Shown here: piece after piece, positions 17,470 to 60,261 of the stretch
Layout of the letters: each line of letters starts with the position of its first letter
How positions within the stretch are numbered: position 1 is the stretch's first letter
Translations under genes and position numbers: made by a program
NCBI RefSeq assembly: GCF_000284095.1
Contig: NC_017068.1
Span: 1,426,001-1,490,000, forward strand
Reading direction: 5' to 3'
Source: Selenomonas ruminantium subsp. lactilytica TAM6421
Lineage (GTDB): Bacteria > Bacillota > Negativicutes > Selenomonadales > Selenomonadaceae
DNA length: 64,000 bases
The notes under the pieces: generated by a model
What the model was told of the DNA's origin: nothing
The model's input: the letters and a program-made list of their open reading frames with translations, nothing else
The model's database searches: none

Positions 17470-17499
17470 TTGAAGGAAATACAGGAGGGAGGGGCGAAA

Positions 17500-29060: not shown

Positions 29061-29075
29061 GGGCGGAGGATAATT

Positions 29076-37639: not shown

Positions 37640-37662
37640 TGTCCGTAAGGAGGAATTGATAA

Positions 37663-40600: not shown

Positions 40601-41100
40601 CAAGCGACAATGATATCGACGAGGAAGAAATATATCAACGGTCACTTCGCTATTACGCTTCGCCGGAGGTGGCACGTCGTGGGGTAGTTCCCGGTTTGCA
40701 AGACATTCCTGCCAATCAGCTTACACCTGAAATAGCTGGCATGATGTTATGGCTGCGACAGCAAAGTTATCAGTGGCTAGATGAATGGAAAGAGCGTGTA
40801 ATTTCGTTATTACCGCTCGTTCCTTCTGAGCCGGTCTGTGACAATATATCCTTACAGAGAAAGGAGGTTAGGATAATCGAAGGAATACGTGAAGCATTGA
40901 GTAAAATAAGTTCGGAGCAAATGACAAAGTATATTTATAATAGTTTCAAGGATATTGTTTTTGATGAGGATAGTTTTTTTGTCAAAACTGAGGAACTGCT
41001 ATTGGATTTAAGAGACTTAACTAAACCCAAGGATGGTATAAAAATATTACGTGATTACAATGCCAGTTTGAAAAATGAGGATATCTGCAAATTATTTTAG
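37663..41100 (+). CDS. HerA/FtsK-like ATPase with disordered insert
   Basis: A 1145-aa protein. The N-terminal 260 residues are globular (DDFWLCQVDEITFVDK). Residues about 275-420 form a low-complexity stretch dominated by Ser, Asn, His, Gln and Lys. Residues about 590-980 are a HerA-like (DUF87) motor: AGVTGSGKTTT (Walker A), VVEPAKTEYRAL, TLVEEAHRLLSRY (Walker B), SLIIVDQIPDKM and LPPGRAVVFSQGWDKAVQV. HerA motors pump or thread DNA, often with a nuclease. The AGGAGG site is good. Confidence 0.85.
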   Translation: MADFSKINETVSQSVIKSKRDLENSLHDQKLKKEADYSLLKKLGNRPDKLVNKKYQWQGENISFDIDDFWLCQVDEITFVDKAPQKEGVENILGTFRGLRGFNFVYMILGSPEKTCFYLGVAKDKVHAGRGNFSVEEVGEKLLRPAIQGNFRGCKLKTVTDESDEGKTGMLSKSDILARLHNQDFHVSMMDGVPSVNVSNNHTSGGKENFQSIDRLVDVMQGCYFGVVVIARPCSAREADELGKNLYTAVNSLSPITKYSLQYAKNINLAHNDNSALSTSKQNSHTTQKSQSDSYSHTEGHSSDYRRDIAKQIAKSCNDTSSSQFAHNKSYGYSRDVGNGGKDREDMHQTADDNNHSVQKSTGNNYNFSTNENNSQSKSENNQHSDSHSKSDSTGLTISSNDQLSFTESSTENSSLSEQLEIESKAAADWLKYIDEVLLPRLDNGNGKGIFNVCTYLFAESEISLKRLSNTAISLYSGPTGNKAALRSIRFDQSQRNSGCNKLLSNFQIPAAIVDHSHTPYETLISMITGKNSANQEIFFCGSWMSANELGLMTGFPQREIIGLKLREEVEFGLNSTNVKLENRIDLGHMVQCGREIDTVRISLDKTELDKHTFIAGVTGSGKTTTCQNILIACQIPFLVVEPAKTEYRALNNHPELRDKGIIYFTPGKQGVAPFFLNPFELFPGEEISSRADMLKATFEASFEMEAAIPQIMGTAIYTAYENKGWNTSTTTWQNKAADAPDGPFADGVYAFPTLSDFKIAVKKVIEKQGFDDRLREEYLGSINARIESLMIGAKGQMLNTPRSIDFRDLVTKRVVIELEEIKSGSEKSLIMGLLMTNLLQAVKIKNKEFKKEKKQFRHITLVEEAHRLLSRYMPGDNRNQKQGVEVFSDMLAEVRKYGESLIIVDQIPDKMTPEVLKNTNTKIVHKLFAKDDKDAIGNTMSLSDEQKNFLSNLPPGRAVVFSQGWDKAVQVQVDKKSNTSDNDIDEEEIYQRSLRYYASPEVARRGVVPGLQDIPANQLTPEIAGMMLWLRQQSYQWLDEWKERVISLLPLVPSEPVCDNISLQRKEVRIIEGIREALSKISSEQMTKYIYNSFKDIVFDEDSFFVKTEELLLDLRDLTKPKDGIKILRDYNASLKNEDICKLF

Positions 41101-43466: not shown

Positions 43467-44908
43467 GAGTCTATCCCGGATTTTGTGTAAACCTCCCCAG
43501 TGATGTAAAATAGGAGCATCACTTGGGGAGGTTTTATCATGAGCAGAAAAACACGCAGTCCAGAAGAGCAGGCTCGCAGAGCAAAGATTCGGGAGTTGTT
43601 GCAGGCAAGCAACATTGGCAGTATGGAGGACATCCAGAACTTGTTCAGGGAAACCATTGCCGAATTTATGGAAAACGGCCTTGAAACCGAGATGGATGAA
43701 ACTCTTGGCTATGGTAAGTACGACTATAAGAACAAAGATACCGACAATAGCCGCAATGGGCATAGCAAAAAGAACCTTCGCACCAGCTTTGGTGAAGTTG
43801 AAGTCTCTGTCCCTAGAGACCGCAAGGGAGAGTTCGACCCGCAGCTCATCAAAAAGAACCAGACCAGCATAAGTCAGGACATTGAGGAGAAGATTTTCTC
43901 CATGTATGCCAAAGGCATGACTACCAGTGATATTGAATCCCACGTTCGTGACATATATGGTATTGAGGTGTCAGACACCACCATTAGCCGCATCACAGAC
44001 AAAATACTGCCGATTGCCAGAGAGTGGCAGCAACGTCCACTGGAAAGCCTTTATGCCGTAGTGTTTATGGATGCCATTCATTACCATGTTCGCAGTGAGG
44101 GGCAAATTGTCAAGAAAGCCGTATATATCGCCATTGGCATTGACATGGACGGACACAAAGATGTACTGGGGATGTGGGTAGGCGAGAACGAAAGTGCCAA
44201 ATTCTGGGCCAACATCCTAAACAGTCTCAGGAACCGTGGTGTAGAAGACATCCTCATTGCCTGCACGGACAACCTGACGGGCTTCTCAGCAGCCATAGAG
44301 GCGGTTTTCCCACAGACAGATATACAAAACTGCATTATCCACCAATTGCGAAATTCCAGCAAATATGTCAGCTACAAAGACCTCAAGGCACTTATGGCTG
44401 ATTTGAAGGAGGTTTACGCAGCGGTAGATGAGCCATCTGCCCTGGCTGCATTGGAGCGATTTTCGGAGCGTTGGGATAAGAAATATCCCAAGATTTCCCA
44501 ATCTTGGCAGGATAACTGGGCTAATTTGAGCACCTACTTTAAATTTCCCAAGGAGCTAAGAAAGTTGATTTACACCACTAATACTATTGAAGGCTTTAAC
44601 CGCCAACTACGGAAAGTGACAAAAGCCAAATCTGTATTCCCGACAGATGACAGCTTGCTGAAGATGCTTTATCTGGCCATGATGGATATTACAAGGAAAT
44701 GGACAGGACGCCGCCAAGACTGGAGCCTTATCCATGCCCAGCTTGCCATTTATTTCGACGGGAGAATTCCGGAATAAAAAATGCCTGCACTACCAAGAAT
44801 CTCTTGGTGTGCAGACAAAGGATTTCTATACTTCGATATAGAAAGAAAAAAATACTATACCTGTTTTACATTGCTACAGGGAGTTTACACAGAATTTGGG
44901 ACAGCCTC
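43467..44908 (+). mobile_element. Complete IS256-family insertion sequence (1442 bp)
   Basis: Imperfect terminal inverted repeats of about 30 bp begin GAGTCTATCCC on the left and GAGGCTGTCCC on the right (read inwards), both continuing into TTTTGTGTAAAC/TTCTGTGTAAAC. An 8-bp duplication TCAGATGG flanks them. A single transposase gene fills the element. A hairpin built on CTGCAC...GTGCAG follows the gene near its right end. A second, truncated copy lies at 59266. Confidence 0.9.
43539..44777 (+). CDS. IS256-family (Mutator-type) transposase
   Basis: A 412-aa DDE transposase of the Transposase_mut family, full length. The catalytic Asps fall in VVFMDAIHYHV and IACTDNLTGF and the Glu in NTIEGFNRQLRK. 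The start MSRKTRSPEEQARR has GGGGAGG before it. It moves the element by copy-out through a circular intermediate, as known for the family. Confidence 0.95.
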   Translation: MSRKTRSPEEQARRAKIRELLQASNIGSMEDIQNLFRETIAEFMENGLETEMDETLGYGKYDYKNKDTDNSRNGHSKKNLRTSFGEVEVSVPRDRKGEFDPQLIKKNQTSISQDIEEKIFSMYAKGMTTSDIESHVRDIYGIEVSDTTISRITDKILPIAREWQQRPLESLYAVVFMDAIHYHVRSEGQIVKKAVYIAIGIDMDGHKDVLGMWVGENESAKFWANILNSLRNRGVEDILIACTDNLTGFSAAIEAVFPQTDIQNCIIHQLRNSSKYVSYKDLKALMADLKEVYAAVDEPSALAALERFSERWDKKYPKISQSWQDNWANLSTYFKFPKELRKLIYTTNTIEGFNRQLRKVTKAKSVFPTDDSLLKMLYLAMMDITRKWTGRRQDWSLIHAQLAIYFDGRIPE

Positions 44909-47900
44909 TCAGATGGCAATTTCTGACTGTGCCTCACGTTCAGTTTCATCCATAGCTGTAAAATCACGATTATCCTGCTGATTCAACATCACAGATAGTC
45001 CGCCATCGGCAGAATGGTGTGGCTTAACCAAGGAATGTGCTACATCTTCCATACACCGACGGGCAGAAGTACCGCCGGTGTTTTCTTTATGAATTTTGAT
45101 TGGTCGCTCCAGGATGAGTCCTGCCTTAATTGCAGCCTTCATATTGGTAATAGCACTTAAACGTCGTTGCAATTGTTGAATGGATTTGCTGAGCTCATCT
45201 ACCTTGGCAACATTGGTTTTGTTTTTCTGTATAATCCTGGCAGCAGTATGGGCAATAGAGGATTTGGCCGCAGGAGTACTGCACTTCTGTTCCAACCGAG
45301 ATTGCATTTTCTCCAGCCTAGCCTGCTTGTGCGCAAAGTCTTGCTGACGCTGCTGCAATGTGTCTTCCATAGACTTTACGTGGGACATTGCTTCGTTGTA
45401 GGCATCACTGCTCTGATACCATTTTGGCTTAGGCATAGTAGCAAAATCTGCTTGAGCAGAGGCGTATTCATTGGCTGCTGCACTTATGCGGTCAGATTCT
45501 TTTTGCAGATTGCGCATATCCAGACGCAATTGTTTGTCAGCGCCGTTAAGGTACCGTGATTTGGCAATGAGGGTTGCCCTTTCTGGGGAAATAAGTCTTT
45601 TCTTCAGATTATCAAGCTCAGAGATTTTCTGTCGCAACGTTCTCTTCAGGCAGCGTTCTTCGTTGTCAAGGTAATGACTGATATCCTTGCTGGTAAAGGC
45701 TCCTGCACCGCTACCAGAAAGAAAATTACCTATGTGGCCAATGATTTCCTTGTCCATTTCGTTCTGAAGGAGTTGCGTATCCTGATTGAGTTTTTGGATA
45801 AGATGCCAGTACTCTTGTTGCTGTGGTTTGTCTGCCCTGAGAATTTCTTGGGAAATACTGGCAAGCTGCTTTTGCACTTCTTGTGCAGTAAGCCGTGCCT
45901 GTATTTCATCATATTTAGCACTAAGTAAATTCTGACGTTCCTGCTGATGTAGAATATCTTCTGTGAGGCACTGGATAATATCATCAGAAGCCGCAGATGT
46001 TCCAGATTCCAGCAATGAGGTGCGCAGAGTTTTTAGCTCATCCTGTTTTAGGGTGAGCTTTTTTTGTGCCCGGATAATGGCAAGGTCGGATGCTGGCAGT
46101 AAATGTGCTATAGCCATATCATGAGCAGTTTCTTTAGAAATCATAACTTTTTCTAGCGCAAGGAGTGCTTGATAATCACTGTTTACCCTGTCTTTTAGTG
46201 TTGCAAGCTCAGAGGAGCGGTGAACTGCATTATTAAAGTGGAGCTCGTGATCGGCAAAAGCCTTGCTGGCATTGTCCTTTGCATTTTGGGCAAAAGACGC
46301 CCCGTGTTCAACCTTCAGATTATCAATCATGGAGGAAAGCTGACTGCGCTGAAATTTATAAGCCCGATACTCCATGAGGTTGATTACCTTGGTGTTATGC
46401 TTATCCGCAGCAAGAGCAGGTCCCAGATGTTCTTCAGGCAAGCGGTTAAGAAGCAGGGCGGCATCCAGGTCGCCTTTTTTTAATGCGTCCTCGTATTGTG
46501 CCTTTAGTGAGCGGTGGTCAACCTGGGCATTTACATTATATTTTTTGAGCACTGAATTTTGGATTTCAGCGAAGTCACGGCGCATTTCGCAAAGGTAGCG
46601 GGCACGGTTCTTATTGTTCCACTTGCCTGCCTTGGGGCAGCCGCCTCGTTCCGGATGTTTGGAATTGGCACGATGAAAGAAAAGCTCAGCAGAGCGCTCA
46701 GCCTTTTTTTCCACATCGTCCATTTCCCGCTCGGAAAACATGATATGAACATGCGTATTGTGCTCGCCGTTACTCATTATGCCAATCTTGTCATGGATGG
46801 CATAGGCGTAATAGTGATCCTTCAGGTGATGTTCAATGAAGGTGTCGATGATTTCTTTTTGGGCAGCCGTATTAAGCTCATTAGGCAGGGCAAATTCAAT
46901 TTCCCGGTAGCGGGTACCGTTGGCCCGTTCGTATTTGTCAGCGGCGGCAAAAAAAGCTTTAGGGTTATTGTTTGCCCATTTAGGCAGATGATGTGCGGTA
47001 TAGATACAGCCTCCCTTGGCAGTGAATGATTCCCGGCGGTTGATGTAATCAGAATGTCTGGAGGCAGGCGTGATACCATCGGCCTGTGCCAAAATACGGG
47101 CAGCCATAGCATCTATTTTTCTTCGGGTACCCCAACGGAAGTCCCGTCGCATTGTATCAGGGCACTGGGTTCCTGACTGTTCCATGCTGATTGCATGGTT
47201 AGGCGGCAATAGCATTCCAGGATTTCTGTGGTTCTCATCCATATCGCGTTGAAGCAATACGCGCAGGGGAGTTCTTTGGGAGGCCGGTCTTTTTCGGGCA
47301 GTTGGTTCAAGGTGGGGGAGATGTACAGTCTGGCTGATTCCTCCTGCAGACTGCTCTGGATAGCTTTGTCCAGTTCTTCCTCGGTCATATCCATTGTCTG
47401 ATTGGCGGATGTGTTCTGTTCCATGATGATTTTCCTCCAAAAGTTTTTGATAGTTTTTGTTGATGACATGACTGGCAAATTGGACGGGATAATCCATATC
47501 CTGTCCGGCCCGGAGCATGGATGTTACTTCATTGAGCGGCCCGGAAAGGTCTAGTTCATTCCCGTACCTGTGTTTGGCAAGTGCCAGTGCTATCTGCTTG
47601 GTTTCCTGGCTGGCTCCGTCCGTATATTCGAGGCCGTCAGTGGTTTCAATAATACTGCCATAGACGCTCTTATAAAGATATTTCGCATCCTTATTTTGGT
47701 GCAAGGATGCTGGACGTGACTGGCGCAAGGTTTTGGCAAGCTTTGCTGGACGTAAGAGGCAACCGGATAGAACCTGCGCATCCAGTTCACGCTTGAAGTC
47801 GATATTCTGAAAAGAGCCATCCCGGTTGATGTAGTCAGCATGAGTGGCGGCAGAGATAGATGTTTTGTCTGGCTTTTGGTCTACCTTGATGGTGAAATGA

Positions 47901-47911
47901 TAGCTGGCCAT
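44909..47911 (-). CDS. MobA/MobL-type relaxase
   Basis: A 1000-aa ORF. Residues 1-160 open like a MobA/L protein (SYHFTIKVDQ, HADYINRDGSF). Residues about 280-480 form the relaxase proper, with a second HSDYINRRESF, YERANGTRYREIEFALPNEL and the metal-binding NTHVHIMFSERE. The remaining 500 residues are mostly coiled coil. Residues about 163-265 look non-globular and lie over a separate small gene in another frame (47113-47424), so the true relaxase may be this whole ORF or may start at the ATG at 47107. It should nick the oriT at about 48019-48071 for conjugal mobilisation. The TGA stop lies inside the IS256 target duplication and is preserved. Confidence 0.82.
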   Translation of the reverse strand: MASYHFTIKVDQKPDKTSISAATHADYINRDGSFQNIDFKRELDAQVLSGCLLRPAKLAKTLRQSRPASLHQNKDAKYLYKSVYGSIIETTDGLEYTDGASQETKQIALALAKHRYGNELDLSGPLNEVTSMLRAGQDMDYPVQFASHVINKNYQKLLEENHHGTEHIRQSDNGYDRGRTGQSYPEQSAGGISQTVHLPHLEPTARKRPASQRTPLRVLLQRDMDENHRNPGMLLPPNHAISMEQSGTQCPDTMRRDFRWGTRRKIDAMAARILAQADGITPASRHSDYINRRESFTAKGGCIYTAHHLPKWANNNPKAFFAAADKYERANGTRYREIEFALPNELNTAAQKEIIDTFIEHHLKDHYYAYAIHDKIGIMSNGEHNTHVHIMFSEREMDDVEKKAERSAELFFHRANSKHPERGGCPKAGKWNNKNRARYLCEMRRDFAEIQNSVLKKYNVNAQVDHRSLKAQYEDALKKGDLDAALLLNRLPEEHLGPALAADKHNTKVINLMEYRAYKFQRSQLSSMIDNLKVEHGASFAQNAKDNASKAFADHELHFNNAVHRSSELATLKDRVNSDYQALLALEKVMISKETAHDMAIAHLLPASDLAIIRAQKKLTLKQDELKTLRTSLLESGTSAASDDIIQCLTEDILHQQERQNLLSAKYDEIQARLTAQEVQKQLASISQEILRADKPQQQEYWHLIQKLNQDTQLLQNEMDKEIIGHIGNFLSGSGAGAFTSKDISHYLDNEERCLKRTLRQKISELDNLKKRLISPERATLIAKSRYLNGADKQLRLDMRNLQKESDRISAAANEYASAQADFATMPKPKWYQSSDAYNEAMSHVKSMEDTLQQRQQDFAHKQARLEKMQSRLEQKCSTPAAKSSIAHTAARIIQKNKTNVAKVDELSKSIQQLQRRLSAITNMKAAIKAGLILERPIKIHKENTGGTSARRCMEDVAHSLVKPHHSADGGLSVMLNQQDNRDFTAMDETEREAQSEIAI
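47113..47424 (-). CDS. Small Cys-rich protein nested in the relaxase ORF
   Basis: A 103-aa protein in a different frame from the relaxase ORF that covers it. It has its own strong site (TTGGAGG, 8 bases before the ATG) and a globular look, with CAYC, ECYC and QCDG that suggest a zinc site. The stop (TAG) lies 6 bases before an ATG in the relaxase frame. Similar short Cys-rich proteins accompany relaxase genes in mobilisable elements. It is likely the real product of this stretch. Confidence 0.6.
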   Translation of the reverse strand: MEQNTSANQTMDMTEEELDKAIQSSLQEESARLYISPTLNQLPEKDRPPKELPCAYCFNAIWMRTTEILECYCRLTMQSAWNSQEPSALIQCDGTSVGVPEEK

Positions 47912-48447: not shown

Positions 48448-48822
48448 ATGGCTGAAATGGAAGATATGTTAAAGAAGCTGGAACGGGTATCCGGACGGCA
48501 CAGCAGGATAAAAGAAAAAATTGAAGCGCTGAAGCAGCAGCTTATGGAAGAAGAAAAATCCATGCAGCGGGAAAAGGACAAGGTTAATGGCAAGTGGATG
48601 AAAAAGTTTGCGGCTTTAGCAGAAAATAAGGGCTTGCAGGTGTTTGATCTTGATCCGGCTAAGATTATTGAACTGGTCGCTGCTGCTCCAGAAGATTTCT
48701 ATGTATCTGGAAAAGGCTGCGGAGATAACGGTCAGAGAGCAGAGTCAAAAGAAGACCTGACAGATAGCAAAGTTGTTCCGGAAGTCAATAAGATTCCCGG
48801 ATTCCAAAAGGAGGAGCCATGA
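48448..48822 (+). CDS. Second small mobilisation accessory protein
   Basis: A 124-aa protein: an N-terminal coiled coil (MLKKLERVSGRHSRIKEKIE), then a short globular part (MKKFAALAENKGLQVFDLDP). It follows the preceding gene by 3 bases and overlaps topoisomerase III by 4 bases, so the three are one operon. It resembles short proteins found before topB or relaxase genes in mobilisable elements; precise role unknown. Confidence 0.6.
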   Translation: MAEMEDMLKKLERVSGRHSRIKEKIEALKQQLMEEEKSMQREKDKVNGKWMKKFAALAENKGLQVFDLDPAKIIELVAAAPEDFYVSGKGCGDNGQRAESKEDLTDSKVVPEVNKIPGFQKEEP

Positions 48823-51104
48823 GTCATAGATTGTTTATTGCGGAAAAGCCGTCCTTAGCCAGGGAACTTGCGAAAGGTCTGGGAGATGGAAACAATAAGG
48901 ATGGCTATATCGAGGTAGGGAATGACGTGGTGACATGGGAGTATGGCCATCTGCTGGAAAATTATGCTCCTGAAGATTATGACGAAAAGTATAAAGTGTG
49001 GCGCAGCGAGGATCTGCCCATTGTGCCGACTCACTGGCAGATGAAGATCCGCCGTGATGGTGCAAAACAGGTCAAGGTTATAAAGAAGCTCCTGGCAGAA
49101 ACGGATATCGTAGTTAATGGCGGAGATCCAGATCGGGAAGGGCAGCTATTAGTGGATGAACTACTGGAGTATCTGGGAAATACAAAGCCGGTGCAAAGAA
49201 TCCTGATAAATGCTCTGGATGAAAAGTCGGTAAAGCAGGCGTTGGCTGATTTACGGGATAACAAGGATTTTGCGGGACTTAAGGAATCAGCAAGAGCCCG
49301 CAGTTACGCAGATTGGCTGGTGGGAACGAATTTAAGCAGAGCATATACCATTGCAGGAAGAAATGCGGGCTTTCAGGATGCTATTCGGATTGGCCGGGTA
49401 AAAACGCCCACCATGTCTCTGGTGGTTCGACGTGAAGAGGAAATCAGAACGCATAAGCCGGTTAATTACTATGAGCTTCAGATAGAATGGCAGTATAAAG
49501 ATTCAACGATCCTGTCGGTCTGGCAGCCGGATGAGTCGGCTATAGATGATAATTATGATTTGGAAAATCGTCTGCTGAAACAGGAAGTGGCAGTAGACAT
49601 CCGGGATAAAATTGCATCAGCTGGTGAAGCAGGTGTGGTTACGCGCCGGGAAGATAAAGTAAAACAGGAATTGCCGCTGCTGCCATATTCGCTTTCGGCA
49701 TTGCAGGTCGCTGCCGGGAAAAAATATGGCTATGAGCCCCAGACTGTCCTGAAAGCAATGCAGGAGCTCTATGAAAAAAAGCTGACTACCTATCCCCGGT
49801 CGGATTGCGCATATCTGCCAGAGAATCAGCTGGCTGATGTGGATGAGATTATGGAAAACCTTGCTGGCATTTCTGGGCTTGAGAAATATTGCAGGGAGGC
49901 AAATACCAGTCTGCGCAGCAGAGCATGGAATGACAGTAAGATATCGGCTCACCATGCAATAGTGCCCACCAGGGAAAAGGCAGATCTTTCTCAGCTTAGT
50001 GATATAGAGCAAAACTTATACAAGATGGTGGCTAAAGCCTATGTGGCCCAATTCTATGAGGCGTATAAGTACAATGCGGCCAAAATTCATATCGAATGTG
50101 CTGGGGAAACTTTTGTGGCGATAGGCAAGCAGGTCATACAGCAGGGATGGAAGGTTCTGTATAGTCAAGAAAAATTGGAGAAGGATGTCCAGACTGGTGA
50201 TGAGGAAGTAGCGGAAAAGACTTTGCCAGATATTAGTGAAGGAGAATCAACCGCATTTAAGGATGGCCATGTTTTGAGCAAGGTCACGAAGCCTCCCCAG
50301 AGATTCACGCCGTCTACGCTATTGCAGGCGATGAAGGAAATACATAAGCACGCCAGAGATAAAGAAGCTGTTTCCAAGCTGAAATCTGTTTCGGGGATTG
50401 GCACGGAAGCTACGCGGGCCGGGATTATTGACTCCCTGATTACTTCCGGCTTGCTGAAGAAGGAGAAAAAGTACCTGGTACCATCTGAGATGGCGGAATC
50501 TATGGTGAAATTCCTGCCGGATGAGCTGACTTGGCCGGATATGACTGCAGAATGGGAAAATAGTCTGGAAGAAATAAGGGAAGGACGGCTGACTGTAAAT
50601 GAATTTATAAATGGCAAGGCGGATACAGTAGCTGCATGCGTGGAGGCATCAGCTATCCTGCATCTGCAGCCTATGTCGGAATCTGTAAAATGCCCGTCAT
50701 GTGGAAAGGTTATGATGCGCCGTAAGGGAAAAAAAGGATTTTTCTGGGGATGTTCTGGGTATCCTGAGTGTAAACAAACCTTTCCAGATAAAAAGGGTAA
50801 ACCGGATTTGGAGGCAAAAGCCGGGAAAAAACTTACGGGCAAAAGTTGGGTTTGTCCGAAATGTGGCAAGGTATTACGGCAGATAGATGGAGCTAATGGA
50901 AAGTTTTGGGCTTGTGAAGACCGACAGGGGTGCGGAGCTAAATTTGCAGATTACAAGGATGCACCAATTATTATGAAGTGTACTGCTTGTGGTGAGGGCT
51001 ATATGAGGATGGTCAAAGGGAAGAAAGGTACATTCTGGTCATGCGACAGGTATCCGGAGTGCAAAAATATTATGGAGGATGCAGGCGGCAGGCCGAAGAC
51101 GTAA
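48819..51104 (+). CDS. topB: DNA topoisomerase III
   Basis: A 761-aa type IA topoisomerase. The TOPRIM domain opens LFIAEKPSLARELAKGLG and has GGDPDREGQLLVDE (metal-binding Asp and Glu). The active-site Tyr is in KLTTYPRSDC (about residue 326). Three C-terminal zinc ribbons follow (CPSC, CPKC and CTAC, each with a distal Cys pair). It decatenates and relaxes single-stranded-region DNA and is a frequent passenger of conjugative and mobilisable elements, where it helps resolve transfer intermediates. This copy is an element gene rather than the host topB, judging from its mobility-gene neighbours. Confidence 0.92.
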   Translation: MSHRLFIAEKPSLARELAKGLGDGNNKDGYIEVGNDVVTWEYGHLLENYAPEDYDEKYKVWRSEDLPIVPTHWQMKIRRDGAKQVKVIKKLLAETDIVVNGGDPDREGQLLVDELLEYLGNTKPVQRILINALDEKSVKQALADLRDNKDFAGLKESARARSYADWLVGTNLSRAYTIAGRNAGFQDAIRIGRVKTPTMSLVVRREEEIRTHKPVNYYELQIEWQYKDSTILSVWQPDESAIDDNYDLENRLLKQEVAVDIRDKIASAGEAGVVTRREDKVKQELPLLPYSLSALQVAAGKKYGYEPQTVLKAMQELYEKKLTTYPRSDCAYLPENQLADVDEIMENLAGISGLEKYCREANTSLRSRAWNDSKISAHHAIVPTREKADLSQLSDIEQNLYKMVAKAYVAQFYEAYKYNAAKIHIECAGETFVAIGKQVIQQGWKVLYSQEKLEKDVQTGDEEVAEKTLPDISEGESTAFKDGHVLSKVTKPPQRFTPSTLLQAMKEIHKHARDKEAVSKLKSVSGIGTEATRAGIIDSLITSGLLKKEKKYLVPSEMAESMVKFLPDELTWPDMTAEWENSLEEIREGRLTVNEFINGKADTVAACVEASAILHLQPMSESVKCPSCGKVMMRRKGKKGFFWGCSGYPECKQTFPDKKGKPDLEAKAGKKLTGKSWVCPKCGKVLRQIDGANGKFWACEDRQGCGAKFADYKDAPIIMKCTACGEGYMRMVKGKKGTFWSCDRYPECKNIMEDAGGRPKT

Positions 51105-51167: not shown

Positions 51168-51319
51168 GTTTCAAACAAAGGGGCACCATGGGGATTTGGT
51201 AGCAAAAACGCAGGATAACAATTTTTTAATAAAAAATGCGCAGTTTTTGAGGCTAAAATCACTATTCAATTATTGAAGGATGTTTTAGAAGTTACCAAAT
51301 GCATAACAGGAGGTGCCTT

Positions 51320-51667
51320 ATGAAGATTGAAAATCCGCATTATTTCTATGGAAGAAAAATTATATGGAATGCGTATCGTGCCATATTGCGGGAAGAGAGG
51401 CAAAAGTATATGGAACAGAGGGAGATGATAGAACGGCTGGGGGCAAGGCTGCTGGGAGATAAAAGTAAGTCGTTTACCAGTGTGGAGATAGTAGATACCT
51501 TCAATCAACTGGATGAAAAACAACGCAAGCTGCTGCAGATGCGGTATGTCTATGGTTTTTCTGTCAAGGAATTGGCGGCTTACTACAATGTGCATCCATC
51601 AAGGATTTCTCATAGGCTCACAGAAAGCCGGAAAGCCTTCAAAAAGTTATGGGACGGTGATCGTTGA
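51320..51667 (+). CDS. Sigma-70 region 4-like regulator
   Basis: A 115-aa protein. Residues about 55-110 (FNQLDEKQRKLLQMRYVYGF, KELAAYYNVHPSRISHRL) form a sigma region 4 helix-turn-helix. No region 2 is present, so it is not a full sigma factor. AGGAGGTG lies before ATG 51320 (an upstream frame opening at 51299 lacks one). Such small sigma-like proteins often control recombination genes in integrative elements. The next gene starts in its stop codon. Confidence 0.75.
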   Translation: MKIENPHYFYGRKIIWNAYRAILREERQKYMEQREMIERLGARLLGDKSKSFTSVEIVDTFNQLDEKQRKLLQMRYVYGFSVKELAAYYNVHPSRISHRLTESRKAFKKLWDGDR

Positions 51668-52220: not shown

Positions 52221-52271
52221 TTGCATATCATTTTTGTACCATGTATACTAAATGTAGGCATGGTACAAAAA
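52221..52271 (+). promoter_or_regulatory. Recombinase promoter inside an inverted repeat
   Basis: TTGCAT (52221-52226), a 17-base spacer and TATACT (52244-52249) form a good promoter. A 13-bp perfect inverted repeat (TTTTTGTACCATG, 52231-52243, with 52259-52271) brackets the -10 box, fitting a dimeric repressor or recombinase site that would control expression. Confidence 0.75.
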
Positions 52272-52283: not shown

Positions 52284-54143
52284 ATGGAAGTGGATGTTCA
52301 AGTCATAGAATCATCGAAGAAGACCAGCGACGGTAGGGCCACAGAATATACGAAAATATATCATGTTGCAGCCTATTGCCGTGTCAGTACTGATGAGCTG
52401 GAGCAAAAAAACAGTTATGAATCGCAAATAAACTACTATAGGCAGAAAATAGCTGAGCACAAAGACTGGAAATTAGTAGATATTTACGCAGATGAGGCCA
52501 TATCTGGAACCCAGACTGAAAAACGGACAGGATTTCAAAAAATGATTGATGCCTGCCGTGCTGGGCTGGTAGATCTCATCATTACCAAATCGATTTCCAG
52601 ATTTGCCAGAAATACACAGGATGTGCTGAAATATGTGCGGGAATTGCAGGACAGGCATATTGCAGTCATATTTGAAGAGGAAAATATAAATACTCTTCGC
52701 ATGGATGGGGAGCTCCTGCTTTCCATCCTCAGTGCAGTGTACCAGCAGGAAGTAGAAAATATATCAGCACATGTCAAGAAAGGACTTAGAATGAAGATGC
52801 TACGTGGTGAGTTGGTTGGCTACGCAGCTTGTTTGGGTTTTGATTATGATATTAAGACCAAGCAGCTTAGCATAAATGAAAAGGAGGCCGATATTGTCCG
52901 TTTCATATTCAAACGATATCTTGAAGGTGTCGGCGGGAGCAGAATAGCCAAAGAATTGGAAGCCATGGGTGTAAAAACTAAGCGTGGCAGCAGCAACTGG
53001 GCTGTATCTACAGTGAACAACATCATAAAGAATGAAAAATATATTGGTGAAATAGTTCAGGGTAAGACCTATACGGCTAATCCCATAACCAAGAAGCGTC
53101 GCAAAAATAATGGTGAGCTGGATTCATACCGGACAAGAGAACATCATCCGGCGATCATTAGTAAGGAAGATTTTAATTTGGCTCAGGAAATCCGTACTGG
53201 ACGCGGGGCTGCTCAGAACTCTAGTGAAGTAGGGGCTATTCCCCGGTTTGGCAGAAGATATGCCTTCAGTCACATGGTTGAATGTGGTTTCTGCGGGGAA
53301 AAATACGTCCGGCGTAATTGGCATAGCAGAACTACATATGCAAAGTTTGTGTGGCAATGTGGTGGAACCACAAGAGAGGGGCGAAAAAAATGTCCTTGTA
53401 GCCGGGCAGTATCAGAGACAGAGTTGGAGCAGGCATTTGTAACCAGTTACAACTCTGTAAATACAGCTGATAATAATGAAACAATGGTTATCTTTGAGGA
53501 TCTGATGAGGGAAGTCATTACCAGAAAGGAAAAAGGGCAGACCAAGAGCCAGATCGAAAATAGTATTGCGGCGGTACAGAAGAAGATTGATATGCTTCTG
53601 GATATGCATCTGAATAAAATGATTGCAGAAGATGATTATGGCAAGAAGTATAAGATGCTCAGAGAAGAGCTGGATAAGCTGGTCAATAAGAAGAAAGACG
53701 TGGATACGTTGAAAATGGCCACTATGACACCGCAACAACGTTTAAAGAAGTTTCGGGAGGTATTGACTTCCAATCCGAATCTGATGGAATTTAACAGGGA
53801 GCTATTCGAGGCTGTAATCAAAAAGGTCACGATCGGCAAAATCAATGAAAATGGCGATCCGGAACCGCACGTTGTAAGATTTGAGTATGTTCATGGTGTT
53901 GTGGATGAAGTGATGGTTCAGGGGACTGGCAGGAACGCCAAGACAACAGCAGACGAAGATGTTGTCAGAATGGTTCATGAAGAAAGAGCCGGTTATGGAA
54001 TGGCGGAGCAGCTTACAGGCATGCAAAGACAGTCGCTGGATTCTATGCTGAGCAATGGAGTGATCGATAAAAGATTGTACAATAAAACAGCAAAAAGGCT
54101 TATCGGGGTGAATAAGGTGACAGCCAGCTTGTCCGGGGGGTGA
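52284..54143 (+). CDS. Large serine recombinase 1
   Basis: A 619-aa serine site-specific recombinase. The N-terminal resolvase domain has AAYCRVSTD (catalytic Ser), YADEAISGTQTEKRTGFQKM and SISRFARNTQD. A recombinase domain follows, then a zinc ribbon (CGFCGEKYVRR with a distal Cys pair) and a coiled coil (about 430-480). It should integrate or excise the element. GGGGGG precedes the ATG. It is the first of two tandem recombinases with the same domain order, a layout like ccrAB-type pairs, and sits at the right end of the element. Confidence 0.92.
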   Translation: MEVDVQVIESSKKTSDGRATEYTKIYHVAAYCRVSTDELEQKNSYESQINYYRQKIAEHKDWKLVDIYADEAISGTQTEKRTGFQKMIDACRAGLVDLIITKSISRFARNTQDVLKYVRELQDRHIAVIFEEENINTLRMDGELLLSILSAVYQQEVENISAHVKKGLRMKMLRGELVGYAACLGFDYDIKTKQLSINEKEADIVRFIFKRYLEGVGGSRIAKELEAMGVKTKRGSSNWAVSTVNNIIKNEKYIGEIVQGKTYTANPITKKRRKNNGELDSYRTREHHPAIISKEDFNLAQEIRTGRGAAQNSSEVGAIPRFGRRYAFSHMVECGFCGEKYVRRNWHSRTTYAKFVWQCGGTTREGRKKCPCSRAVSETELEQAFVTSYNSVNTADNNETMVIFEDLMREVITRKEKGQTKSQIENSIAAVQKKIDMLLDMHLNKMIAEDDYGKKYKMLREELDKLVNKKKDVDTLKMATMTPQQRLKKFREVLTSNPNLMEFNRELFEAVIKKVTIGKINENGDPEPHVVRFEYVHGVVDEVMVQGTGRNAKTTADEDVVRMVHEERAGYGMAEQLTGMQRQSLDSMLSNGVIDKRLYNKTAKRLIGVNKVTASLSGG

Positions 54144-54147
54144 GTGC

Positions 54148-56313
54148 ATGGCTGAGACGGAAGTCATTAAGGCGCATAATTTTCATGATAAGCATCCAAA
54201 AGCGCTGCGGAGAGTGGCGGCATATTGCAGAGTCAGTACAGACTCTGAGGAGCAGGCTACCAGCTATAAATCTCAGATTGTCTATTATAGTGAGAAAATC
54301 AGGAACACACCAGGGTGGCTGTTAGCGGGGGTTTATGCAGATGAAGGGATAAGCGGAACTTCATTTGATAAGCGTAAAGAGTTCAAAAGGATGATTGAGG
54401 ACTGTCTGGCAGGCAAGATTGATATGGTGCTTACCAAATCCTTATCAAGGTTTTCTAGAAATACAGAAGATATCATAAAGTATGTCAGGATGCTCAGAGA
54501 AAAGGCCATTCCTATAATCTTTGAAGAAGAGCATATAAATACTTGCTCGATGGATGGAGAACTAATGTTGACCATTCTGGGTGCAATTTATCAGCAGGAA
54601 ATACATAATACGTCTAGTCATGTTAGGTTAGGCTTGAAAATGAAGATGAGACGTGGGGAGCCGATTGGTAGCATTAAGGTTTACGGTTATAATTATGACA
54701 AAGTTACTAAGAAACTGACCATAAATAATCAAGAGGCGAAAGTGGTAAGATTTATCTTTCAAAAGTATGCAGAAGGTCTAGGCGCTTTAAGAATATGCAG
54801 AGAATTGGAAAGATGTGGGATAAAGGCTCCAAAAGCTGAGTTTTGGTCACCACCGGTGATAATGAGTACTATAAAAAATGTGAAATATCGCGGAGACTTA
54901 CTTTTAGGAAAGATGTATACACGGGATCCCATCAGTCAAAAGCAGATTTCTAATTTTGGTGAAAGAGAAAAGTACTATGTGAGGAACCATCATGAGGCTA
55001 TTGTAGAGCCGGAACTATTTGATAAAGTGCAGGAAATTTTGCGAAAAAGAAGAAAACAGAACAAAATAGATAGAGTAACGGGGAAACACATAGAGAGAAA
55101 ACCAAGAGAGAGTAAACAAGGGGAAGTATTCGTAAAAAAAATTTATTGTGCTGAATGCGGTAAGACATTCATCAAGAAACGCCGTATGAGGCGGTCTAGA
55201 AAAAATGTATTGATAAAATGGCAATGCTATGGTTTTGCATATCATGGAAATAACTGTCGGAATACTAGAGCATGGGACAATTCATGGATAGAAAAAGCTT
55301 TCGTTGAGAGCTTTAATCTGCTTTGTCGTACGGGAGAGGTATCCATTGGTAGCTTCCTCGATATGATGAAAACAGTACTCTGTAAAAAGGAGCAGGAACG
55401 TAAATCACTCGGAAAAAATATAAAATCTCAAATAAGTGTAATGCAAAAGCAGATGGATGATTTGCTTAGTTGTAGGTTAGACGGCAGTATAAATGAACAG
55501 GTATTTAGCGTAAAATATGAGTCCTTAAGAAAAAAATTGGATAAAGCAAATGTCGAAGCAAAAATGATTGCATCGCAGGTTGCCAGAGAAAACGGTTTGA
55601 CAGCAAGGATAAAAGATCTTCAGACAAAACTGAGGCAATCAGGTCCGTTGGATAAATTTGATGCAAAAATATTTGATTCTGTAGTTGAAAGAGCTCTAAT
55701 TGGCAGGGATGGTGATACAGAATATATTACGTTTATATATCGTAATGGTGAGGAAAACAGCTTCAATCTCGAAAAGTTTCAGAAAGCTGTCGAACTCAAA
55801 AGACAATTGAATATGGTATCTGCTCATTACAAGAAGGAAAAGTCAGTGTCTTGTGCATCAATGTACTCAGCAGTGTCAAAACAAGGTATGGATTTGTTAC
55901 CACTGGATGACAAACAAGGCAATGGTCAATGTGCTCATGAGAAAAACAGAACTGATATGACGGATAGTGTGACTACGGAGGACGGAGTGGAATATTCTTC
56001 CAAACCCATAAATAAAGGGAATACACATTCAGAAGCGTATGAAAAATGCTCCATGCGTAGTGTAAATTCTTTATTACACTATGATATGAGTACCAAGGAT
56101 GATATGTCATCCCCCCTTGACATGGAAGGGATGATGATGACTCCTAAAATGGCTGAAAAAAAATGCTCCATGCGTAGTGTAAACACCGGACAAGGTGCTT
56201 GGCACTTCCGGAGCACTGAAGATGGCCATGTCCGGTTTTTCCAGTCCTGCCCTGGCCCTGGTAGGGGCAGCCCTCTTTATCTCAGCGGCTATGATGAAGA
56301 CGGGGCTGGATAA
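54148..56313 (+). CDS. Large serine recombinase 2, reading across the right junction
   Basis: A 721-aa relative of the preceding gene, 4 bases downstream: AAYCRVSTDSEEQ (catalytic Ser), DEGISGTSFDKRKEF, SLSRFSRNTED and a zinc ribbon (CAECGKTFIKKRRM). The C-terminal 150 residues are an unusual low-complexity tail. Within it a 25-bp direct repeat (56042-56066, 56159-56183) encodes KCSMRSVN twice. The last 43 codons, after about 56183, lie in what is host DASS-gene DNA in another frame, so the end of this protein is created by integration. Confidence 0.88.
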   Translation: MAETEVIKAHNFHDKHPKALRRVAAYCRVSTDSEEQATSYKSQIVYYSEKIRNTPGWLLAGVYADEGISGTSFDKRKEFKRMIEDCLAGKIDMVLTKSLSRFSRNTEDIIKYVRMLREKAIPIIFEEEHINTCSMDGELMLTILGAIYQQEIHNTSSHVRLGLKMKMRRGEPIGSIKVYGYNYDKVTKKLTINNQEAKVVRFIFQKYAEGLGALRICRELERCGIKAPKAEFWSPPVIMSTIKNVKYRGDLLLGKMYTRDPISQKQISNFGEREKYYVRNHHEAIVEPELFDKVQEILRKRRKQNKIDRVTGKHIERKPRESKQGEVFVKKIYCAECGKTFIKKRRMRRSRKNVLIKWQCYGFAYHGNNCRNTRAWDNSWIEKAFVESFNLLCRTGEVSIGSFLDMMKTVLCKKEQERKSLGKNIKSQISVMQKQMDDLLSCRLDGSINEQVFSVKYESLRKKLDKANVEAKMIASQVARENGLTARIKDLQTKLRQSGPLDKFDAKIFDSVVERALIGRDGDTEYITFIYRNGEENSFNLEKFQKAVELKRQLNMVSAHYKKEKSVSCASMYSAVSKQGMDLLPLDDKQGNGQCAHEKNRTDMTDSVTTEDGVEYSSKPINKGNTHSEAYEKCSMRSVNSLLHYDMSTKDDMSSPLDMEGMMMTPKMAEKKCSMRSVNTGQGAWHFRSTEDGHVRFFQSCPGPGRGSPLYLSGYDEDGAG
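56042..56183 (+). repeat. 25-bp direct repeat pair at the right element end
   Basis: Identical 25-bp copies at 56042-56066 and 56159-56183 (core ATGCTCCATGCGTAGTG), 117 bases apart. The first is followed by a TAGTGTAA...TTACACTA inverted repeat (56058-56081). The second abuts the host gene and is the likely att junction. Confidence 0.75.
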
Positions 56314-57421
56314 GCGGCTGGCTCTCTTTATCCTATCGAAGATTGGTGCCAAGACAAAAAATGTTTTGGCTGGAGTTATTCTCGTGGGCTTTATTCTGAG
56401 CTTCTTTGTGCCCAGCACTACAGCCCGTGTATCCTGCATGGTGCCTATTGTCATGGGCATTATTGCGGCCTTTGGCGTACCTTTGAAGAGCCGTTTCTCA
56501 GCGGTGATGATGATTGCTATCGCCCAGGCTGACAGCATCTGGAATGTGGGCATCAAGACGGCGGCGGCGCAGAATATGATTGCGCTGGAATTTATCGAAA
56601 AGCAGCTGGGGACGACAATCAGCTGGTTGGACTGGTTTATTACGGCAGCTCCCTTTGCAGCCATTATGAGCGTGGTGCTCTATTTCCTGCTCTTGAAGCT
56701 GGTGCCGCCGGAAATGGATGAGATTGAGGGCGGTCAGGAGACTGTTGCCCGGGAATTGAAGGAACTGGGCCCTATGACCTGGAGCGAAAAAAAGCTTATG
56801 ATTATTTCCATGTTGCTGCTGTTCCTGTGGTCCACGGAAAAGATCCTGCATAACTTTGACACTTCATCCACCACCATGGCTGCCATTACTTTGATGATGC
56901 TGCCAGGTATTGGCATCATGAACTGGAAGGAAGCCCAGGCCAAGATTGGCTGGGGCACCTTGGTGCTCTTTGGCGTGGGTATTAGCCTGGGGTCGGCTGT
57001 GCTTTCCACCAAGGCGGCCACCTGGATCGCCCATGTGATTGTCAATGTCTTTGGCCTCTATTACACCTCGTCGTTTATGATCATCGCCATCCTGGCGCTT
57101 TTCCTCATTGTGATCCATCTGGGCTTTGCCAGCGCCACAGCTTTGGCAGCGGCCATGATTCCCATTGTGATCTCGGTGCTGCAGGGAGCGGCGGAGTATT
57201 CCCATCTAAATGTGGTGGGGATGACGCTTATTCTGCAATATGTAATCTGTTTTGGCTTTATCCTGCCGGTGAATGCCCCACAGAATATGGTGGCCTTCGG
57301 TACGGAAACCTTTGAAGCCAGAACCTTCATCAAGACCGGTATTCCCTTGACCATCATCGCTTACAGCCTGATCATGCTGATGGCTGCAACCTATTGGAAA
57401 TGGTTAGGTATAATCATCTGA
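56195..57421 (+). CDS. DASS-family anion transporter, N-terminally truncated by the element
   Basis: A 408-residue remainder of a divalent anion:sodium symporter (DASS/CitT-SdcS family). About 10 transmembrane segments remain, with the family motif FVPSTTARVSCMVPI and a second SATALAAAMIPI helix pair. Full proteins have about 470 residues, so about 60 N-terminal residues are missing. In this frame a TAA lies at 56180-56182, immediately before the host sequence begins, and no ribosome binding site precedes the GTG at 56195. Its left part should lie at the other end of the element. It is probably non-functional. Confidence 0.85.
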   Translation: MLGTSGALKMAMSGFSSPALALVGAALFISAAMMKTGLDKRLALFILSKIGAKTKNVLAGVILVGFILSFFVPSTTARVSCMVPIVMGIIAAFGVPLKSRFSAVMMIAIAQADSIWNVGIKTAAAQNMIALEFIEKQLGTTISWLDWFITAAPFAAIMSVVLYFLLLKLVPPEMDEIEGGQETVARELKELGPMTWSEKKLMIISMLLLFLWSTEKILHNFDTSSTTMAAITLMMLPGIGIMNWKEAQAKIGWGTLVLFGVGISLGSAVLSTKAATWIAHVIVNVFGLYYTSSFMIIAILALFLIVIHLGFASATALAAAMIPIVISVLQGAAEYSHLNVVGMTLILQYVICFGFILPVNAPQNMVAFGTETFEARTFIKTGIPLTIIAYSLIMLMAATYWKWLGIII

Positions 57422-57461
57422 CAGGCATGCGGAGGCATATATTCATGAAAATGGCGGTGGT

Positions 57462-57490
57462 TTGACTTTCCTTTGTGTCAGCTCTATACT
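57462..57490 (+). promoter_or_regulatory. Sigma-A promoter of the YczE-type gene
   Basis: TTGACT (57462-57467), 17-base spacer, TATACT (57485-57490), 26 bases before the ATG at 57517. Confidence 0.8.
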
Positions 57491-57516
57491 ATCTAACGTA
57501 GGAGGAGATGGTGTAG

Positions 57517-58230
57517 ATGTCTATGGTGTTACGTTATTTTTTGTTCGTTGTTGCAGTTATCGTACAGGCGTCTGGGATAGCACTGGTGGTTAAGAGTATG
57601 CTGGGAACTTCACCTATTTCCAGCCTGCCATATGTCATTAGTCTGGCATCGCCATTTACATTGGGGCAGATGACCTTTTCGATTAACATGCTGCTGGTAC
57701 TGGGGCAGTACTTGTTGCTCCGCAGAGCTTTTGATAATATCCAGTTTCTGCAAATTCCGGTGACGTTGATATTCTCCTGGTTTATTGATTTTTTCATGGA
57801 TGCATGGGCGTGGATCGTTCCTACAAATTACGTATTCCAGCTATTGCCTTTGCTTATTGGCACCACTTTGATAGCCTTTGGCGTAGCTGTCCAGGGAATT
57901 GCCAATGTACTGATGCTTCCCGGCGAAGGAATAGTATATGCTGTATCCCGGCATTTCCGCATTGAATTCGGCAAGGTGAAAACAGCCAATGATGTCAGCC
58001 TTGTGTCACTAGCCGCTGTGATTTCGTTGATATATCTTGATGGAATTGAAGGCATACGGGAAGGCACACTGATATCGGCCTTGATTACGGGAACTATAGC
58101 GAGACATTTCCTTAAACATCTGAGCAAGGTGGATGGAAGTGGTAATTTGGTATTCCATCCGCATTGGCGGGAGAAAAATAAGGATATGCAGGATGGTCCA
58201 GAGCAGAAGATAAGCCTGGAAAATGGATGA
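57517..58230 (+). CDS. YczE/YyaS-type membrane protein
   Basis: A 237-aa integral membrane protein of about five helices. The opening RYFLFVVAVIVQASGIALVV, the motif MLGTSPISSLPYVISL and the later ALITGTIARHFL match the YczE/YyaS (DUF6198) family, whose function is not established. The C-terminal 30 residues are cytoplasmic and charged. GGAGGAG and a good promoter precede it and a terminator follows, so it is a single-gene unit of the host chromosome. Confidence 0.85.
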   Translation: MSMVLRYFLFVVAVIVQASGIALVVKSMLGTSPISSLPYVISLASPFTLGQMTFSINMLLVLGQYLLLRRAFDNIQFLQIPVTLIFSWFIDFFMDAWAWIVPTNYVFQLLPLLIGTTLIAFGVAVQGIANVLMLPGEGIVYAVSRHFRIEFGKVKTANDVSLVSLAAVISLIYLDGIEGIREGTLISALITGTIARHFLKHLSKVDGSGNLVFHPHWREKNKDMQDGPEQKISLENG

Positions 58231-58250
58231 AGTCCTGAATCTTGGCATCA

Positions 58251-58297
58251 AAAAAGCCCATTCTGAGGGTGATTGAATCACTCCGGGATGGGCTTTG
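58251..58297 (+). terminator. Intrinsic terminator after the YczE-type gene
   Basis: A long imperfect stem starts AAAGCCCAT and ends ATGGGCTTT, with an A-rich outer left arm, so it can act in both directions. Confidence 0.75.
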
Positions 58298-58421
58298 CTA
58301 TTGTATATCAGGCCTTGATGAACTCCAAAACATCCTAAAAATAATACTCAACTATTTTACATAAAATCAGTTGCTTTCGCAAGTTTTACGATATCGCTGC
58401 ATTACTACAGCAGCATCATTT

Positions 58422-58450
58422 TTGACATCTGTTGTCTGTTTATCTATACT
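58422..58450 (+). promoter_or_regulatory. Consensus promoter of the HD hydrolase gene
   Basis: TTGACA (58422-58427), 17-base spacer, TATACT (58445-58450), 22 bases before the ATG at 58472. Confidence 0.85.
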
Positions 58451-58471
58451 GAAGGAAAAGGGGGAATTTTG

Positions 58472-59032
58472 ATGAGCAAACTTACATTGGATAGAGCCAA
58501 GGAGATCCTGGCAAAACATACTACGGAGGAACATCTGTTCCATCATGCTGCTGCTGTCAGTGCGGCCATGGGAGCCATGGCAGAAGCCTATGGGGAAGAT
58601 AAAGATTATTGGGCTGCTATTGGCTGGCTTCATGATGTGGATTATGAAAAGTTCCCGGATGAGCATTGCCATCATGTGCGGGAATTGTTAGCGCCAGAAG
58701 GTGTGGATGAGGAAGACATTAAAGCCATTATCACTCATGGATATGAAATCACGACAGATGAGGCAGAGCCGGTAAACAATCTGGAAAAAAGTCTCTTTGC
58801 AGTGGATGAACTTACGGGTATCATACAGGCATATGCACTCATGCGCCCAGAAAAGATGGAAGGCATGGCTGTTAAATCTCTGAAAAAGAAATATAAAGAC
58901 AAGCGGTTCGCTGCCAAGTGTAACCGGGAAATCATTGATAAGGGCGTCGAAAAACTGGGGATGGAGCTCAGTGAGGTTATGAGCCACTGCATTAAGGGCA
59001 TGACTGAACATAGCGATGAGATAGGTCTGTAA
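58472..59032 (+). CDS. HD-domain hydrolase
   Basis: A 186-aa metal-dependent phosphohydrolase of the HD superfamily: FHHAAAVS, GWLHDVDYE (the His-Asp pair), a later HG in ITHGYEI, and a third metal site likely in FAVDELTG. Substrate unknown; small single-domain HD proteins often hydrolyse nucleotides. GGAAAAGGGGG lies before the ATG (an upstream in-frame TTG is less likely). Confidence 0.85.
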   Translation: MSKLTLDRAKEILAKHTTEEHLFHHAAAVSAAMGAMAEAYGEDKDYWAAIGWLHDVDYEKFPDEHCHHVRELLAPEGVDEEDIKAIITHGYEITTDEAEPVNNLEKSLFAVDELTGIIQAYALMRPEKMEGMAVKSLKKKYKDKRFAAKCNREIIDKGVEKLGMELSEVMSHCIKGMTEHSDEIGL

Positions 59033-59137
59033 TAGCGGGGGGAAGCTCTGACTTTAGCTGTTTTATTCGGATAATCGAAAACGGGGAATATCGTGATCTG
59101 CCGATCATTGCTGAAAACTTAGGCCCTGATAATTATA

Positions 59138-59281
59138 ATGCAAGCATCGTCTGAACAGATAGAGATAATAAAAGCATCACAGGAACTACAGCCGGGACAG
59201 GTTATGAAGATTGATGCCTGTGCCGGTTCCGGCAAGACCACCACACTGGTGGCAGTGGCCAATGCGCATGACTACCAGTGA
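59138..59281 (+). pseudogene. UvrD-type helicase N-terminal fragment
   Basis: Forty-seven codons from ATG 59138 read like the start of a UvrD-family helicase: EQIEIIKASQELQPGQVMKI and then DACAGSGKTTTLVAVANA (Walker A). The frame ends at once in the truncated IS256 copy, so the helicase gene was cut off by that element or by a deletion starting from it. No downstream part is visible. Confidence 0.75.
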
Positions 59282-60261
59282 CATTGAATCACATGTCCGT
59301 GACATATATGGCATCGATGTGTCGGATACCACCATCAGCCGCATCACAGACAAAATACTGCCCATTGCCAGAGAGTGGCAGCAGCGTCCACTGGAAAGCC
59401 TTTATGCTGTAGTATTTATGGATGCCATCCATTACCATGTCCGCAGTGAGGGTCAGATCGTCAAGAAAGCCGTATATATCGCCATTGGCATTGACATGGA
59501 CGGACATAAGGATGTACTGGGGATGTGGGTAGGCGAGAACGAAAGTGCCAAATTCTGGGCCAATATCCTGAACAGTCTTAGAAACCGCGGCGTAGAAGAC
59601 ATCCTCATTGCCTGCACGGACAACCTGACAGGCTTCGCAGCAGCCATTGAGGCGGTTTTCCCTCAGACAGATATACAGAACTGCATTATCCACCAATTGC
59701 GTAATTCCAGCAAATATGTCAGCTACAAAGACCTCAAGGCTCTTATGGCTGATTTGAAGGCGGTTTACGCTGCGGTAGACGAGCCCTCTGCCCTGGCTGC
59801 ATTGGAGCGATTTTCAGAGCGTTGGGATAAGAAATATCCCAAGATTTCCCAATCCTGGCAGGATAACTGGGCCAATTTGAGCACCTACTTCAAATTCCCC
59901 ACGGAGCTGAGAAAGTTGATTTACACCACCAATACCATTGAAGGCTTTAACCGCCAATTACGGAAAGTGACAAAAGCCAAGTCCGTATTCCCCACGGATG
60001 ACAGCCTGCTGAAGATGCTCTATTTGGCCATGATGGATATTACCAGAAAATGGACAGGACGCCGCCAGGACTGGAGCCTTATTCATGCCCAGCTTGCCAT
60101 TTATTTTGATGGGAGGATTCCGGAATAAAAAATGTCTGCACTGCCAAGAATTTCTTGACGTGCAGACAAAAGGGTTTCTATACTTCGATATAGAAAGAGA
60201 AAATATACTATCCCTGTTTTACATTACTACAGGGAGTTTACACAGAATTTGGGACAGCCTC
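59266..60261 (+). mobile_element. 5'-truncated IS256-family copy
   Basis: Nearly identical to the complete element at 43467 from about its base 449 to its right end, with the same right terminal repeat (GTTTACACAGAATTTGGGAC). The left 448 bases and left repeat are missing; the junction is in the helicase fragment at about 59266. Confidence 0.9.
59268..60128 (+). pseudogene. IS256-family transposase fragment
   Basis: Codes for the C-terminal 286 residues of the transposase and includes all three catalytic motifs (MDAIHYHV, CTDNLTGF, NTIEGFNRQLRK). It lacks the N-terminal 126 residues that bind the element ends. It cannot move by itself, but could be mobilised or recombine with the complete copy. 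Confidence 0.85.

Follow-up and report, generated by a model that had tools for sequence, protein, structure and literature searches.

A DASS transporter gene of Selenomonas ruminantium as the probable insertion site of an ICE-like element with its attachment site inside a serine recombinase gene

Results

Genes and features near the right end

The window, by which we mean the whole stretch of 64,000 nucleotides analysed (G000:C1:1426001-1490000), contains two tandem recombinase genes, the second of which reads into a transporter gene of the sodium:sulfate symporter (DASS) family. The features discussed below, some of them defined by comparison with a sister element, L060, are as follows.

44909..47911, minus strand: MobA/MobL relaxase, 1000 aa (PF03389, E 1e-23)
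48819..51104, plus strand: protein from the ORF lists that we take to be topoisomerase-like, adjoining the recombinases in L060 too
51299..51667, plus strand: sigma-70 region 4-like protein, also in L060 (PF08281, E 4e-9)
52284..54143, plus strand: recombinase 1, large serine recombinase of 619 aa (PF00239, PF07508, PF13408)
54148..56313, plus strand: reading frame of recombinase 2, with 721 codons when integrated (PF00239, PF07508, PF13408)
54628..54873, plus strand: part of the Recombinase (DNA-binding) domain of recombinase 2 (residues 161-242), where divergence from L060 is greatest (47.6% aa identity)
55813..56184, plus strand: element-coded C-terminal tail of recombinase 2, residues 556-679, open in both elements
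56042..56090, plus strand: S1, internal attP-like site with both arms, located by a 25-bp repeat; palindrome at 56058-56081, centre CT
56161..56187, plus strand: P arm and crossover CC (56186-56187) at the right junction, from junction comparison and palindrome
56186..56313, plus strand: host-coded 3' end of recombinase 2, 42 codons and stop, in a frame that differs from that of DASS (junction mapping)
56186..57421, plus strand: C-terminal part of the DASS gene (PF00939, E 6e-97)

Both tandem proteins contain Resolvase, Recombinase and zinc-ribbon domains. A search of their own genome with recombinase 2 gave two matches at E 1e-40 (6 of 10 candidates scored). Homologues of recombinase 2 were detected at the same threshold in 44 of 189 genomes of the family, the best non-self match being 48% identical over 325 residues, and homologues of recombinase 1 in 3 of the 189 at E 1e-130. 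In genome G167 recombinase 1 is 97% identical, on a contig that stops within the gene and looks identical to L064, a partial copy described below. The promoter suspected upstream of recombinase 1 was absent among the sites of a promoter scan. An inverted repeat, TTTTGTACCATG / CATGGTACAAAA, lies before the gene at 52228-52268 and was also seen by eye in L060; it is a possible operator.

Insertion site and size of the element

An earlier note on this DNA had described a DASS transporter lacking about 60 residues. The family assignment holds (PF00939) but the length does not, as about 75-77 residues of a full length of 485 are missing. The note had proposed looking for the N-terminal piece at the left junction, and it is present: when the first 77 residues of a homologue from genome G011 were used as query, residues 1-75 were matched with 97% identity, which places the first 75 codons of the cut gene at G000:C1:1334254-1334478, on the same contig and outside the window. 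With this position, the distance between the CC of the left and the CC of the right junction, and hence the size of the element, is 147,710 bp, in accord with the earlier estimate of more than 56 kb.

At the left junction the DASS gene reads AATATGATGAAT-CCG and then switches to CTTTACACTATGAAATGA; at the right junction the element stops with TAGTGTAAACA-CC and the gene resumes with GGACAAGG, the host DNA on that side beginning at the CC (56186-56187). The bases common to both junctions are CC, or CCG, and nothing more. Joining the flanks in silico gives a transporter frame of 485 codons without interruption, in agreement with the earlier view that excision would restore this gene. DASS homologues were searched in 22 genomes of the genus, including the genome itself, at a threshold of E 1e-60, with a match in 15 and none in 7. 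The 14 matches among the 21 other genomes are one partial match (G006) and 13 uninterrupted frames with lengths of 485-527 codons, of which 10 have 92-96% identity and 3 have 64-66%. Judged from the sequence, the junction is genuine and the overall interpretation of the earlier note is supported.

In the right flank, the segment at 57451-59141, comprising a DUF6198 gene and the one that follows it, recurs inside the element at 90-97% identity (G000:C1:1349714-1351819), with two short inserts between the pieces of the copy and an early stop in the DUF6198 copy. In 10 relatives, no such neighbour lies within the 1.5 kb or less covered downstream of their DASS genes. A Mutator-family transposase gene on the element (43539-44777) likewise corresponds to a stretch of 92.5% identity in the right flank (59258-60261).

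Element content

Pfam scans covered 30 element proteins, from ORFs picked by length, and four others, among them the two recombinases and the DASS protein. The genes at the left end encode HTH_36, ParA-type and ParB-type proteins (ParB_N under the cut-off), and VirB4-, TrbL-, TrbI- and coupling-protein-like conjugation genes were found. Integrase, relaxase, VirB4-like ATPase and coupling protein all lie within the delimited element, which is ICE-like in its gene content.

Several other genes were noted on the element. A run of large genes at 23352-41100 looks like a defence island: it encodes an MkoA-like helicase (PADLOC, E 4e-77), a PRTase-associated wHTH protein, a PDC-M26A-like ATPase, a DUF2357 protein of 1303 aa and a HerA-like protein. 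A NERD nuclease-helicase (10468-12135, minus strand) resembles PADLOC RTasNERD-Hel (E 3e-65). An FtsZ/tubulin-family protein (12341-13330; PF00091, E 3e-30) adjoins a PcfJ-like gene, protein kinase and PP2C phosphatase genes lie near each other at 15426-18447, and there is a second, weaker kinase-like gene at 23962-25485.

Attachment site and the 25-bp repeat

When the two element ends are joined they form the palindrome TAGTGTAAA-CACCGC-TTTACACTA, that is TAGTGTAAA-N6-TTTACACTA with CC at its centre, and the predicted circle junction reads GTGTAAACA-CC-GCTTTACAC. Read outward from CC, the arms are equal at 16 of 25 positions, including a run of 9; among 200,000 shuffles, 19 reached 16 matches and 8 reached a run of 9. 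In serine integrase attP sites, according to an excerpt of PMC3783163, half-sites of 25 bp flank a central dinucleotide, and the CC-centred palindrome fits what a large serine recombinase would be expected to use. As to a putative central dinucleotide, CC(G) is shared by the two junctions of the window element; in L060, of which one end was seen, the match to an intact host site in genome G009 starts at the corresponding position of the arm, with GG instead of the CC of the window element.

The 25-bp repeat that had been reported to end at 56183 is there, with exact copies at 56042-56066 and 56159-56183 and a chance expectation of about 1e-5 in 147,710 bp. A copy at the left end was not found: searching the whole genome with 21 bases and up to 3 mismatches located two places, both at the right end. 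The repeat therefore is an internal copy, and a flanking att repeat is ruled out. Across 189 genomes the P-arm pattern matched in two only, the own genome (2 copies) and G007 (1 copy). We regard the latter (L101, 1501-1520) as probable chance; none of the ORFs in the 3 kb inspected encodes a recombinase. The match falls in a presumed macrodomain-type gene, and a presumed DUF6198 homologue lies some 1.3 kb away. The one stretch of viral contigs that matched the attP pattern, L103 (401 bases read), was also taken as chance.

The internal site S1

The first copy of the repeat belongs to S1, which lies exactly 117 bp inside the right end, with the same spacing in the window element and in L060. 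Bases equal between S1 and attP of the window element number 28/33 upstream, 15/17 downstream, 1/7 in the core and 5/21 beyond. No further attP-like palindrome was found in the 164 kb scanned, where S1 has 1 mismatch in 18 and the next best site 5, as do reversed-arm controls. Aligned with L060, S1 shows an upstream arm that is almost unchanged and a downstream arm that has changed in part. The centre of S1 is CT in the window element and AG in L060, and that of attP is CC and GG, respectively (in L060 by position); since the centres of S1 and attP differ, recombination between the two is not expected.

We also considered S1 as a relic of another left end. When the left end was aligned with the 68 bases following S1, the match did not exceed that of shuffled sequences (p 0.15 in the own element, 0.49 in L060), and this origin is thus unsupported. 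Nothing resembling S1 was detected among exact repeats of at least 11 bases in four other homologues: phi-SsuZKB4_rum and phi1605 have none, pAPRE01 has one of 13 bases, 197 bp apart, and G070 has two, 418 and 1339 bp apart.

A sister element in another gene

L060 is a contig of the viral collection, the one relative among 12 matched stretches. It has the same gene order (topoisomerase-like, sigma-like, recombinase 1, recombinase 2), and its recombinases 1 and 2 are 94% and 70% identical to those of the window element. A third copy, L064, is incomplete; it ends within recombinase 1 and shares 99% identity with L060 across 3451 aligned columns. The P arms of the window element and L060 are equal at 20 of 22 bases (by eye). 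The target gene at the right end of L060 is one that we take to be pilin-type: 106 of 107 bases of its host flank equal the intact G009 gene, a frame of 139 codons, and recombinase 2 of L060 reads on into this gene for a tail of 34 codons. A left junction of L060 in the form of the cut pilin gene was not seen among the matches listed for 189 genomes (3 candidates scored per genome).

The two recombinase 2 proteins differ unevenly along their length. Residues 1-160 are 90.6% identical, whereas residues 161-245 are 49% identical to L060 and likewise 49% to two streptococcal rum integrases. At the nucleotide level, in 100-base steps, the two elements share 68-98% identity between the end of the topoisomerase-like gene and residue 150 of recombinase 2, with most values above 80%; identity is 71% over residues 152-184, 58-59% over 185-251, 66-79% from 251 to about 517, 85-88% over 518-584 and 68-72% in the remaining tail. 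Estimates of dS are 0.63 for residues 1-160, 2.0 for 161-242 and 0.42 for the tail, the high values being near saturation. Such unevenness of dS points to exchange of the middle segment rather than fast change alone.

The probable tail exchange of recombinase 2

The integrated form of recombinase 2 has 721 residues, of which 680-721 are encoded by host codons, the first of them shared across the crossover. The earlier note had the frame entering host DNA by 43 codons; the host-coded end is confirmed and the count corrected to 42. In the circular form the frame would take up 53 codons of the left end instead, for a total of 732 residues. The note's view that excision would restore the recombinase gene as well is less secure, as the circular frame would acquire this different tail. 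The two frames fit the earlier claim that integration alters the C-terminus. Homologues with the same tail in elements inserted elsewhere would speak against this idea; in the one relative, L060, the pilin-derived tail is different and from another gene, and so the idea survives this comparison. About 9 tail residues, up to residue 688, are still included in the protein alignment with L060; we ascribe this to chance, the two tails being derived from different genes.

The enzyme proper appears to extend to about residue 560, since relatives in plasmid and phage records match only to residue 545 (among the matches listed, 15 of 2318 and 15 of 460 records) and the structure model has pLDDT below 50 from residue 563 onward; this model, from an alignment of 8 rows, has a mean pLDDT of 59.9 and low overall confidence. 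Between the window element and L060, dN/dS is 0.71 in the tail versus 0.15 in the body of recombinase 2. When neutral drift of 0.34 substitutions per site was simulated from the window sequence, only 2.8% of the 5000 runs kept the 123-codon tail free of stops, which hints at some importance of its translation. We read a tail that stays open despite its high dN/dS as suggesting weak selection against truncation, short of functional proof. Relatives of the left end were limited to weak matches in 17 other genomes among 189, none spanning its first 167 bases (2 candidates scored per genome). Neither the first left-end gene nor the circular tail had a relative in the viral sequences scanned.

Discussion

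Very probably, an ICE-like element of 147.7 kb was inserted by recombinase in a DASS gene, has its attP inside the frame of recombinase 2 and reaches its right end at this locus. Both junctions, the intact joined frame, the palindrome of the joined ends and one sister junction elsewhere were observed directly. In the mechanism that we propose, one or more large serine recombinases would join attP of the circle, with its palindromic arms and central CC, to the CC of the transporter gene through a two-base crossover. Since attP lies within the recombinase 2 frame, integration would replace the 3' end of that frame with host DNA in the same event that interrupts the transporter gene; on excision the transporter would become whole again and recombinase 2 would receive its left-end tail. 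We infer catalysis by these recombinases, CC as the cleaved dinucleotide, excision, and transfer.

The evidence comes from one assembly and one sister junction, at its right end, and the element itself is known from that single assembly. It could accordingly be asked whether faulty assembly or some old rearrangement, instead of insertion by a recombinase, produced the junction. This is very improbable, given that one gene is split into exactly complementary pieces, that the two element ends form a palindrome and that the junction of L060 falls at the same place of the arm. A separate question is what the exchanged tail does. It might act as a latch, with the 732-aa circular and 721-aa integrated forms of recombinase 2 differing in activity such that integration stabilises itself. 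Neither attP-like site interrupts the frame in either element, few drift runs kept it open, and for phage Mx8 an altered integrase is less active, according to an excerpt of PMC4701971. We nevertheless consider a latch unlikely in view of the dN/dS of the tail, its want of confident structure in the model and the absence of a left-end tail relative that would show conservation. On the first two of these grounds we prefer to see the tail as probably, for the most part, a tolerated by-product and not a switch.

The function of S1 can be weighed in a similar manner. It may be a former attP or a duplicated pair of arms without present function, which we rate as a substantial possibility somewhat short of an even chance: its core differs from that of attP while the flanks agree, and the downstream arm is partly changed in L060, but both elements keep the 117-bp spacing and the upstream arm of L060 is nearly unchanged. 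Alternatively, S1 may be an accessory or decoy site in a system with divided labour, where recombinase 1 would read the conserved arms of attP, recombinase 2 would read the chromosomal target, and the target would change by exchange of the DNA-binding domain of recombinase 2. Recombinase 1 and the P arms are so alike in elements with different targets while residues 161-245 of recombinase 2 are not, and the inner attP motif TTTACACTA is not recognisable in the DASS attB (3/9 and 1/9 positions, by eye), both of which favour such a division. With its case built on one pair of elements and on the P' arm of the window element, it is a speculative proposal that we hold to be rather improbable as a whole. 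Regarding target change itself, the simplest reading of the sequences is that it would occur via the DNA-binding domain of recombinase 2.

The exchange of an integrase 3' end is already described. In streptococcal rumA ICEs, as set out in excerpts of PMC4701971, the att site lies in the gene of a single serine integrase and integration swaps the 3' parts, which alters sequence and length of both proteins. Because of this precedent our central observation belongs to an established type: the window element likewise has its att site within a serine integrase gene whose 3' end is exchanged with the target. It differs from the rumA ICEs, with their single integrase and rumA target, in two tandem recombinases, DASS and pilin targets, a long tail with a second attP-like site, and a distant host. 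Streptococcal "_rum" records are among the best phage-collection matches to recombinase 2 (39-40% over residues 4-545).

Other systems share single aspects. The same excerpts describe ICEs in which serine integrases lie as triplets close to one end of the element, a gene is disrupted and direct repeats measure 2-8 bp (PMC4701971); like these, the window element has several serine integrases in a row near its end, disrupts a gene and has very short repeats, but its recombinases are two and adjacent, and the last frame crosses the att site. In Myxococcus phage Mx8 attP is inside the integrase gene and integration replaces the C-terminus (PMC4701971, in part); Mx8 is a phage with a tyrosine integrase, in contrast to the serine recombinases found here. 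The gin element splits gerE of Bacillus cereus, which is rejoined upon excision, and has three recombinases with 22-26% mutual identity (excerpt of PMC5595907). It resembles the window element as a serine-recombinase element that splits a protein gene and differs in the number of recombinases, two in our case; a tail exchange of gin is not described in that excerpt. SCC elements have a pair of serine recombinases, CcrA and CcrB, in one operon (PMC5595907, same excerpt), and resemble the window element in this pairing. As far as these partial sources go, the features that make the window element a variant are the tandem pair with tail exchange, S1 at 117 bp and the concentration of divergence in the DNA-binding domain of recombinase 2. 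Among the literature listed in our searches, we met no description of the window element or of tandem recombinases with att inside one of their genes.

The present element extends the rumA-type tail exchange to an element with two recombinases in a distant host, Selenomonas and Streptococcus belonging to different bacterial classes. The sisters constitute a natural test of target change, combining a nearly identical partner enzyme and P arm with a different DNA-binding domain and a different landing gene. If labour is divided between the two recombinases, the choice of target could be studied separately from the recognition of attP.
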